A stretch of 64,000 nt of DNA, taken from contig NZ_JACCBB010000001.1 of NCBI RefSeq assembly GCF_013409345.1, forward strand, positions 2,976,001 through 3,040,000. Direction: 5' to 3'. The notes beneath the pieces are model-generated. The model worked only from the letters and a program-made list of their open reading frames with translations, did no database searches and was not told the origin of the DNA. The translations under genes were made by a program, and so were the position numbers. Of this stretch, positions 3,997 through 52,024 are shown in pieces. The DNA is from Kineococcus aurantiacus. Lineage in GTDB: Bacteria; Actinomycetota; Actinomycetes; Actinomycetales; Kineococcaceae. The first letter of the stretch is position 1; each line of letters opens with the position of its first letter.

Positions 3997-4017
3997 AGCA
4001 CTCCGGTGATCAAGCAC
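3997..4017. repeat. Copy of a 16-bp repeat unit, about 1.3 units
   Basis: One full unit AGCACTCCGGTGATCA at 3997-4012 is followed by five bases of the next (AGCAC). The reverse complement is TGATCACCGGAGTGCT. The same unit, with one base changed, occurs three times in tandem at 51766-51813. The TGA stop of the neighbouring TetR gene lies inside this copy. Confidence 0.6.
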
Positions 4018-50144: not shown

Positions 50145-51179
50145 GTGGCCCACCCCTACCGCATCCGGGAGATCGCCCAGCAGGCCGGTCTGAGCACCGC
50201 CACCGTCGACCGGGTCCTCCACGGCCGGGCGGGGGTGCGGGCCGGGACGGTCGCGCAGGTGCACCGGGCGATCGCCGACCTGGACCGGCAGGCCTCCCAG
50301 GTGCGCCTGGGCGGGGCGACGTTCTTCCTGGACCTGGTCGTCCTGGCCCCGGACCGCTTCAGCCGGGCCGTCCGGGCCGCGCTGGAGGCCGAACTGCCGA
50401 CGCTGCGCCCGGCGGTCGTGCGGGCCCGGTTCCACTTCCGCCAGGACGGCGGGGCGGCCGACCTCATGGGGGTGCTCGACGGCATCGCCCGCCGCGGGTC
50501 CAGCGGGGTGCTGCTCAAGGCCCCCGACGACCCGGCCGTCGTGGCGGCCGTGGCCCGGCTGCAGGCCCGGGGGATCCCCGTGGTCACGTTCGTCACCGAC
50601 CTCCCCGCGAGCCGGCGCGTCGCCTACGTCGGCATGGACGACCGGGCGGCGGGCGCGACGGCCGCGTACCTGCTGACGGCCCTCGCGCCGGAGTCGGGCG
50701 GGGTGCTGGTCTCGTTGAGCCGCAGCACCTTCCGCGGCGAGGGGGACCGGGAGCAGGGGTTCCGGGCCACGCTGCGCGAGCTCGCGCCGCAGGTGCCGGT
50801 GCACGTCGCCGAGGGCGGCGACGGGCTGGAACCCCCGACGGGGGCGGCCGTGGCGGCGGTGCTCGCGCGCGCACCGGGGATCGACGCGGTGTACTCCGTC
50901 GGCGGGGGCAACCGCGCGGTGCTCGCGGCCTTCGACGCGGCGGGGCGGGCCGTGCGGGGTTTCGTGGCGCACGACCTCGACGCCGACAACGTGGAGCTGC
51001 TGAGGTCGCGGCGGCTGACGGCGGTCCTGCACCACGACCTGCGCGCCGACGTCCGGCGGGTGTGCCGGGCCGTCCTGCAGGCGCAGGGGGCGCTGCCGGG
51101 GCGGCCGGGGTCGCGGCCCTCGCAGATCCAGGTCATCACCCCGTACAACGAGCCGGCGGCGCTGACCGACGACGCGTGA
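50145..51179 (+). CDS. LacI-type regulator with RbsB-like sensor domain
   Basis: 344 residues. The helix-turn-helix at about 5-50 reads Arg-Ile-Arg-Glu-Ile-Ala-Gln-Gln-Ala-Gly-Leu-Ser-Thr-Ala-Thr-Val-Asp-Arg-Val-Leu-His-Gly-Arg. The type 1 periplasmic-binding domain from about 65 ends Val-Ile-Thr-Pro-Tyr-Asn-Glu. This subgroup controls catabolic genes for small polar compounds. GAGGAG at 50134-50139 is five bases before the GTG at 50145. The divergent dioxygenase gene is the likely target. Confidence 0.86.
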   Translation: MAHPYRIREIAQQAGLSTATVDRVLHGRAGVRAGTVAQVHRAIADLDRQASQVRLGGATFFLDLVVLAPDRFSRAVRAALEAELPTLRPAVVRARFHFRQDGGAADLMGVLDGIARRGSSGVLLKAPDDPAVVAAVARLQARGIPVVTFVTDLPASRRVAYVGMDDRAAGATAAYLLTALAPESGGVLVSLSRSTFRGEGDREQGFRATLRELAPQVPVHVAEGGDGLEPPTGAAVAAVLARAPGIDAVYSVGGGNRAVLAAFDAAGRAVRGFVAHDLDADNVELLRSRRLTAVLHHDLRADVRRVCRAVLQAQGALPGRPGSRPSQIQVITPYNEPAALTDDA

Positions 51180-51200
51180 CCCGGCGCGGGACGGGTCGCG

Positions 51201-51238
51201 TGTCGACGGCGGCACTGTCGATGGTGGAGCTGTCGATG
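51201..51238 (+). repeat. 15-bp imperfect tandem repeat before the MerR gene
   Basis: TGTCGA recurs at 51201, 51216 and 51231 with a 15-base period; the units are TGTCGACGGCGGCAC, TGTCGATGGTGGAGC and TGTCGATGTG. It covers the ribosome site and start of the MerR gene, and could be an operator or chance. Confidence 0.45.
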
Positions 51239-51777
51239 TGCGGATCGGGGAACTCAGCGAACGCAGCGGTGTCAGCGCGGCCTCCATCGAGTACTACGCC
51301 CGCGAAGGGCTGCTGCCCCCCGGTGAGCGCACCGGCTGCAACCAGACCGAGTCCGCGCAGGCCCACCTCGAGCGCCTGCGGCTCATCCGCTCCCTCATCG
51401 ACGTCGGCGGCCTGTCCGTCGCCGCCACCCACGGCTGGCACGTCCACGGCGAGCAGAACCCCGGCGTCCGGATCGTCGCCGCCGTCCTCGACGCCTGGGC
51501 CGCGGCCGGGCGCGAGGACCTCGCCGCGGCCCTGCCCGCCTGCGCCCGCGCGGCCGAAGTCGTCGCGCAGGCCGACCTGGACACCGTCGCGGACGCCGTC
51601 GACGCCGCCCGCGCCGGCGGCGACCGCGCGGCCGCCGCCCAGACCGTCGTCGTCGGCACCGTCCTCGGCGACCGTCGTGGTGCTCGGGATCGGCGGCGCG
51701 GTCGGGCTCGGCGCCCTGGCGGCCGGTGCGCTGCACCGTCCCCGCCCCGCCCCGCCCCTCCCGCCCGCAGTGCTTGA
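51238..51777 (+). CDS. MerR family regulator, probably frameshifted near its 3' end
   Basis: 179 residues as read. MerR helix-turn-helix at 1-70: Arg-Ile-Gly-Glu-Leu-Ser-Glu-Arg-Ser-Gly-Val-Ser and Ile-Glu-Tyr-Tyr-Ala-Arg-Glu-Gly-Leu-Leu-Pro-Pro, followed by an Ala-rich helical domain up to Val-Val-Val-Gly-Thr-Val-Leu-Gly-Asp (residue 145). After about 51670 the frame turns Arg-rich and loses G/C in third positions, while the next frame reads Thr-Val-Val-Val-Leu-Gly-Ile-Gly-Gly-Ala-Val-Gly with normal codon use to a stop at 51793. Skipping one base there restores a protein with a hydrophobic tail. Confidence 0.75.
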   Translation: MRIGELSERSGVSAASIEYYAREGLLPPGERTGCNQTESAQAHLERLRLIRSLIDVGGLSVAATHGWHVHGEQNPGVRIVAAVLDAWAAAGREDLAAALPACARAAEVVAQADLDTVADAVDAARAGGDRAAAAQTVVVGTVLGDRRGARDRRRGRARRPGGRCAAPSPPRPAPPARSA

Positions 51778-51813
51778 TCACCGCAGTGCTTGATCACCGC
51801 AGTGCTTGATCAC
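51766..51813. repeat. 16-bp unit in three perfect tandem copies
   Basis: CGCAGTGCTTGATCAC is repeated exactly at 51766-51781, 51782-51797 and 51798-51813. The circular unit TGATCACCGCAGTGCT differs in one base from the copy at 3997-4017. It lies between convergent genes, and supplies the stop codon of the corrected MerR frame (51791-51793) and of the small gene on the other strand (51794-51796). Confidence 0.85.
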
Positions 51814-52024
51814 CAGGGGGGAGGAGGGCCGCGCCGAGGGCGGTGAGGAGCTCGACGACCTCGGCCCGGTCGAGCCGGACCGTCGAGACGCACGTCGTGT
51901 CCTGCCACGTCGACAGGACCACCCGCCCCGCCTCCGGGTGCGTCGTCACGCGCAGCGCCCGGCCGAGCCGGTCGGCGTCGCGGACGACCCCCGTGCGCAC
52001 ACCCCGGTCGACGGTCCCGTCCAT
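51794..52024 (-). CDS. Small conserved hypothetical protein
   Basis: 76 residues from an ATG at 52024. The core Val-Val-Leu-Ser-Thr-Trp-Gln-Asp-Thr-Thr-Cys-Val-Ser-Thr-Val-Arg-Leu resembles a type of small actinobacterial protein of unknown function with a Trp-x-x-x-x-Cys strand pair. The C-terminus, Gly-Asp-Gln-Ala-Leu-Arg, and the stop are encoded by the 16-bp repeat, so the original end may have been altered when the repeat arose. The long frame that continues upstream is a shadow of the NmrA-like gene. Confidence 0.65.
   Translation of the reverse strand: MDGTVDRGVRTGVVRDADRLGRALRVTTHPEAGRVVLSTWQDTTCVSTVRLDRAEVVELLTALGAALLPPGDQALR

Follow-up and report, generated by a model that had tools for sequence, protein, structure and literature searches.

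A dispersed 12-mer repeat in Kineococcus aurantiacus forms tandem, mostly inverted arrays behind genes and resembles REP-like palindromes

The window analyzed here, 64,000 nucleotides in length (C1:2976001-3040000 of a Kineococcus aurantiacus genome of 5,027,298 bases in two contigs), contains the same short repeat at two places, both of which overlap the stop codons of predicted genes (Table 1). A first-pass annotation of the window described about 1.3 copies of a 16-bp unit at 3997-4017 and three perfect copies at 51766-51813, and both loci were re-read as described. Within the longer array, TRF reported a period of 16, 3.1 copies, and 100% matches (51765-51814). The TetR frame (TCA 4010-4012) and the minus-strand ORF at 51794 both terminate within units, in agreement with the proposal that the repeat supplies stop codons. 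The proposed 16-bp period also held, but conservation is limited to 12 of the 16 bp (GTGCTyGATCAC), with the rest of the period forming a variable 4-nt linker that is most commonly CGAA, GGGA, CGCA, or CGGA. Four occurrences of TTGATCAC were found in the window against 0.22 expected, and none of 100 shuffles contained four or more. Three T-type copies give stop codons in all six frames (16 = 1 mod 3), as was checked directly. Both window loci are one-sided examples of the family, with units facing one way and without a strong hairpin (fold z-score of -1.6 for the three-copy array).

Table 1. Coordinates of the repeat features in the window (window numbering) and of two further palindromic families (locus numbering)
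Feature	Position	Strand	Remark
One full 12-mer, GTGCTTGATCAC	4006..4017	-	TCA 4010-4012 is the TGA stop of the TetR frame
Linker CGGA and partial second unit GTGCT	3997..4005	-	Window sequence
C-rich stretch ahead of array	51741..51766	.	Similar stretch precedes many family arrays
Array unit 1	51770..51781	+	TGA 51775-51777 closes predicted MerR ORF 51238-51777
Array unit 2	51786..51797	+	Stops of plus ORF 51062-51793 and of minus ORF ending 51794
Array unit 3	51802..51813	+	Window sequence
G-rich tail behind array	51816..51828	.	Similar tail trails many family arrays
Second family	L222-L241, L190:3344, L191:6540, L201:4412, L252:472		Core GATCGTTGTGACAACG
Third family	L242-L251, L192, L197, L202-L204, L042:1835		CCCGCTCGAAGCAC

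The unit is not confined to these two loci. With at most one mismatch, AGTGCTTGATCACC has 143 matches genome-wide, while its reversed control has none; the list of positions covers 100 of these places. The exact 12-mer occurs 185 times (94 + 91) in the 5.03-Mb genome, again with a reversed control of 0. All exact copies are on C1 and none is on C2 (174,614 bp). Nearly all of them (182/185) fall in 57 arrays of at least two units; the remaining three are single, namely, the copy at window position 4006 and two copies inside predicted genes. Taken together, the 57 arrays hold 219 units (at most two mismatches), with 182 units consisting of one of two exact words (119 GTGCTTGATCAC and 63 GTGCTCGATCAC). 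This catalogue was built from fetched stretches, and arrays composed solely of degenerate units would escape it.

Elsewhere in the genome, the unit mostly belongs to a two-armed palindrome. The arrays comprise 22 minus-then-plus, 20 plus-then-minus, 7 plus-only, 7 minus-only, and 1 mixed example, such that 43 of the 57 have two inverted arms and 14 are one-sided. Each arm contains from one to six units. Between the arms is a 12-nt loop of stereotyped sequence (TCCTGTCCACAA or the complementary sequence) or, alternatively, a G-rich/C-rich center. Among minus-then-plus arrays, the inner loop measures 12 nt in 14 of 22 cases, with GTCCAC or GTGGAC present in 12 of those 14; the other inner loops are 4 nt in four arrays, 0 nt in two, and 32 and 39 nt in two. 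The conserved loop TCCTGTCCACAA of minus-then-plus arrays (e.g., L034, L040, and L066) resembles, with one mismatch, an actinobacterial DnaA box. Linkers are identical in 43 of 61 pairs within an arm, compared with 5 of 62 pairs between the arms of one element and 731 of 6205 pairs between loci. Because linkers agree within arms and not between arms or loci, each arm appears to grow separately, duplicating its own 16-bp module in tandem. The T/C variant of the unit agrees in 94/135 comparisons within arms, 100/144 between arms, and 8780/16192 between loci, which could also be explained by the shared age of the copies.

Predicted folding separates the two kinds of array. Fold z-scores, calculated from 30 shuffles per array, had a median of -7.6 among the 43 inverted arrays, 41 of which scored below -3; the 14 one-sided arrays had a median of -0.8, and 1 of them scored below -3. 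Facing units differ from each other at 44 positions, compared with 59.9 for permuted partners (71 pairs, p=0.0002), and are identical in 37/71 pairs, compared with 26.9 after permutation (p=0.0026). In the 22 minus-then-plus arrays, the outer arms are also more complementary to each other than to arms from other loci (p=0.00045); this excess was absent in plus-then-minus arrays, both for outer flanks (p=0.36) and for inner loops (p=0.74; 17 loci). The first-pass annotation had offered an RNA site as one reading of the repeat, which is plausible given that 43 of the 57 arrays have inverted arms and are predicted to fold. A match to a known RNA family was rejected, as Rfam returned no hit at the gathering score in eight loci. 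The inverted arrays do possess the predicted stable hairpin of a canonical intrinsic terminator, which the one-sided arrays mostly lack. None of the 43 inverted arrays has a TTTT within 30 nt on either strand; they are therefore not canonical intrinsic terminators. Intrinsic terminators without a U-tract ("I-shaped") have been reported for mycobacteria, and the Kineococcus arrays are similar to these in having a strong GC-rich hairpin behind stop codons and no T run. They differ in sharing a dispersed sequence with tandem modules and, at two or more loci, in being additional to an ordinary hairpin.

Gene pairs, contexts, and background were derived with a purpose-made simple gene caller. The arrays occupy 25 convergent, 25 tandem, and 7 divergent spacers, compared with 77, 286, and 73, respectively, of 436 background spacers from stretches of the same genome. 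Convergent spacers are thus enriched (p=3e-5, or p=2e-4 when restricted to gaps of at least 30 bp), and divergent spacers are depleted (p=0.017, gaps of at least 30 bp). An earlier, less strict assignment, in which single units also counted (61 clusters), yielded 22 convergent, 25 tandem, and 7 divergent placements, with 7 classified as "inside." In tandem spacers, the array is closer to the stop codon than to the start codon in 22 of 25 cases (p=0.00016), and the median distances to stops and starts are 17 and 82 bp, respectively. Arrays contain 16 of 75 neighboring stops but only 1 of 39 neighboring starts (p=0.006), although some of these may reflect gene-calling errors. The proposal of a dispersed short tandem element expanding at the ends of genes is supported by the 57 arrays, by the enrichment in convergent spacers and at stop codons, and by linker identity within arms. 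At asd and fliP, an ordinary hairpin that could itself be sufficient for termination lies upstream of the array.

Along C1, 2 of the 57 arrays lie within 0.75 Mb of either end (p=2e-7, for a cut-off picked after viewing the histogram). C1 is assumed to be linear by analogy with K. radiotolerans (PMC2587704). The right end of C1 (L090, C1:4840000-4852684) is unlike the rest, with a G+C content of 0.636 and 18% called coding, and is possibly a chromosome end. We note that one gene (L077:2537-3522) has a minus array on one side and a plus array on the other, an arrangement resembling an insertion element with inverted ends. Its product has a weak MTES_1575/DUF559 nuclease-like match that falls below curated cut-offs. 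This was the only gene found between inverted arrays (nine proteins from six loci were annotated), and the idea of an array-flanked transposase gene was not supported within this set.

Relatives of K. aurantiacus largely lack the repeat. Ten congeners contain 0 to 6 exact 12-mers each (30 in total), and of the 20 fetched, the simple gene caller placed 16 inside genes and 4 outside them. Congener G004 shares 1501 identical bp with pKRAD01 of K. radiotolerans SRS30216. The exact two-unit tandem occurs 88 times in the K. aurantiacus genome and is missing from all ten congeners and from one other family member; an ancient genus-wide feature was rejected on this basis. In a class-level sample searched with up to two mismatches, 3 of 296 genomes matched, specifically, K. 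aurantiacus itself (62+59) and two genomes with a single near-match each. Among the species sampled, the family is thus specific to K. aurantiacus. A scan of named genomes (84,980 species), which like the plasmid scan may omit records close to the query genome, retrieved one matching stretch, in Modestobacter sp. DSM 44400. This locus (L091:3337-3412) carries cgcaGTGCTCGATCAC in five perfect copies and then CGCGG, with the same 16-bp unit and linker; it is the only such locus in that genome, in which the other five 12-mers are all single. No viral contig carries the exact two-unit tandem, and a phage-borne origin was accordingly rejected.

Synteny allows individual array positions to be compared. 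Both asd and fliQ are present in 11/11 genus genomes, and no congener 12-mer matches at either locus. An ordinary or unrelated hairpin is present by asd and fliP in those congeners for which the downstream or upstream regions were read in the correct orientation. The unit is missing from the congener at all eight syntenic loci compared (L035, L041, L043, L046, L048, L049, L063, and L086), and an unrelated hairpin occupies the congener spot at six of them. At L035, the stop codons of K. radiotolerans are 9 bp apart where K. aurantiacus carries an array; at L041, the congener genes overlap, and the K. aurantiacus array encodes the last codons of the left gene. Since the arrays are absent from all sampled congeners, they were probably gained by the K. 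aurantiacus lineage rather than lost by its relatives. Stems of at least 14 bp are commonest in the convergent spacers of all three species sampled, at 0.27 of 15, 0.50 of 22, and 0.54 of 37 spacers (approximately 4/15, 11/22, and 20/37, rounded from the fractions), compared with 0 in mononucleotide-shuffled sequence. Several of the corresponding congener spacers (L179:12670-12820, L109, L110, L157, and L152) hold long, near-perfect hairpins that are unrelated in sequence.

A k-mer screen of sampled stretches revealed two further unrelated palindromic families that, among the Kineococcus species sampled, are amplified only in this one. The second family, GATCGTTGTGACArCG, has 44 matches with at most one mismatch in K. 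aurantiacus and none in the ten congeners (reversed control, 0). It forms a hairpin of approximately 65 bp. Half-loops of two kinds occur in the 25 clusters read, and their mixing between loci looks like an exchange of arms. The third family, CGCTCGAAGCAC, has 25 matches in K. aurantiacus and 0 to 2 in congeners (reversed control, up to 5); in the 17 clusters read, its repeat frames a GC-rich terminator-like hairpin.

In Proteobacteria, gene-end palindromic repeats are familiar and many of them rely on a RAYT transposase, and CGTC-type REPs without a dedicated transposase have been described; the word Actinobacteria is absent from the main text of that report (PMC3733652). The Kineococcus family is similar to REP/BIME elements in consisting of short, high-copy extragenic palindromes behind genes, paired head to head and specific to a species or strain group. 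It also fits the broad definition of such elements (extragenic, tens of copies, alternating orientation), given 57 arrays with both orientations in 43. It departs from them in architecture: a REP is described as a single 20- to 40-bp hairpin, whereas each arm of a Kineococcus array is built from tandem copies of a module made up of the 12-mer and a 4-nt linker. The sequence tags of REPs are also largely missing, as GTAG or CTAC occurs within 8 nt of the outer ends in 0/43 inverted arrays and CGTC or GACG lies equally close to the ends in 2/43. The Y1_Tnp/RAYT domain (PF01797) was detected in 0 of 11 genus genomes at an E value of ≤0.001, compared with 5 of 14 control genomes. A classical RAYT-driven REP was rejected given the missing PF01797 and GTAG tag. 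The family is nevertheless real and dispersed, and we classify it as a variant of REP-like gene-end palindromes. A literature search retrieved no description of the 12-mer element, with text matches to the 12-mer concerning a locust gene and melanoma.

The dispersal of the arrays, the anatomy of their arms, their position behind genes, and their absence at the syntenic spots examined were observed directly and have to be accounted for together. On balance, we lean toward REP/BIME-like hairpins dispersed at gene 3' ends, amplified in one Kineococcus lineage, and acting in bidirectional termination or RNA-end protection. Two arms of tandem units facing each other would form a long hairpin when transcribed from either side. 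Behind genes, such a hairpin would most likely serve as a bidirectional terminator-like or RNA-3'-end-protecting structure. Arms would lengthen by tandem duplication of their own 16-bp module, and new loci may arise by ectopic copying between gene-end hairpins or through some recombinase. A growing gene-end hairpin fits because of the arm anatomy, the position of the arrays, and the hairpins found at the same spots in relatives. Weighing against this model are the arrays that are one-sided (14/57), those in divergent spacers (7/57), the ordinary hairpins upstream of the arrays at asd and fliP, the missing T run, and the lack of excess complementarity in the outer flanks and inner loops of plus-then-minus arrays. 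The one-sided arrays are left unexplained by the model, except as half elements or products of decay.

A purely selfish miniature insertion, in which some transposase or recombinase moves the module or palindrome and copies pile up behind genes where tolerated, with no host role, is a possible if doubtful alternative. It would suit the lineage-specific presence, the arrays at L035 and L041 where congener stops nearly meet or genes overlap, the excess of stops over starts inside arrays, and the amplification of three unrelated palindromic families in the same genome; the Modestobacter array, with its identical linker, further hints at transfer. Flanking direct repeats argue otherwise, as 6-nt repeats within 14 nt of the ends occur at 1/57 arrays compared with 1.4 for shuffled partners (shorter duplications would escape), and insertion with target duplication is not supported. 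The outer ends also have no fixed terminal sequence, the genus search (which covered the Y1 family) returned no match, and facing arms match each other above chance. The arrays are similar to MITEs in being palindromic, noncoding, and private to one species but differ in showing neither fixed terminal inverted repeats nor target duplications. The first-pass suggestion of a mobile-repeat relic may hold: lineage-specific gain or loss is seen, but neither target duplication nor, in the 11 genus genomes, a Y1 transposase was found. As a whole, the first-pass interpretation is partly supported.

A more far-reaching version of the gene-end hairpin model, which we consider rather unlikely, makes the 16-bp module itself self-multiplying. 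It would seed behind genes, multiply on both arms of a palindrome, supply stops in six frames, and create a two-way gene-end hairpin where the genes of relatives touch or overlap. If true, the spread of at least three unrelated palindromes in the same genome would point to general, RAYT-independent machinery for copying gene-end hairpins.

It is improbable that the 12-mer is a DNA-level protein site for nucleoid organization, replication, or recombination that was multiplied by tandem and inverted repeats. The strong conservation of the 12-mer as two exact words and the scarcity of arrays near the C1 ends (with its post hoc cut-off) are compatible with such a site. The pronounced preference for convergent spacers and gene 3' ends, the absence of arrays from ten congeners, and outer-arm complementarity that extends beyond the 12-mer are not. 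Typical chromosome-organizing sites are unlike arrays that are missing from congeners.

It is very unlikely that the 12-mer is a DNA uptake sequence specific to this species, of the kind that is often paired to form terminators in Neisseria and Haemophilus. Uptake sequences serve as terminator hairpins (cited in PMC2267715), and the Kineococcus 12-mer shares with them a short dispersed word in inverted pairs behind genes. Uptake sequences are present in hundreds to thousands of copies (PMC2346458), whereas the 12-mer has 185 exact copies, all but three of them clustered, is arranged in tandem 16-bp arrays, and is restricted to one species in the genus sample, with no enrichment in congeners. 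Finally, chance or plain slippage of ordinary sequence, in favor of which stands the slippage-like homogenization of linkers within arms, can be set aside, as it and the two-locus reading are contradicted by the 143 one-mismatch matches, the 185 exact copies against reversed controls of 0, the window shuffles, and the stereotyped loop in 14/22 minus-then-plus arrays.

Three unrelated palindromic families are amplified in one high-GC actinobacterium and not in ten congeners, and no Y1 transposase was detected in the genus sample. This constitutes a clean case for studying the gain, copying, and loss of gene-end hairpins. With 16 of 75 neighboring stops inside arrays, it also raises the question of whether new repeats reshape gene ends.

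Within a 400-kb sample of K. radiotolerans, no intergenic 12-mer was found at more than four loci. Two stretches of another congener, G009 (L174 and L176), contain a repeated 12-mer, CGGTCATCCCGC, between small genes, with an orientation that is mostly constant per stretch. Its surroundings include several small genes without a Pfam match, a tyrosine recombinase gene (L176:124-1218), and Mutator transposases. These stretches could be an integron-like cassette array.
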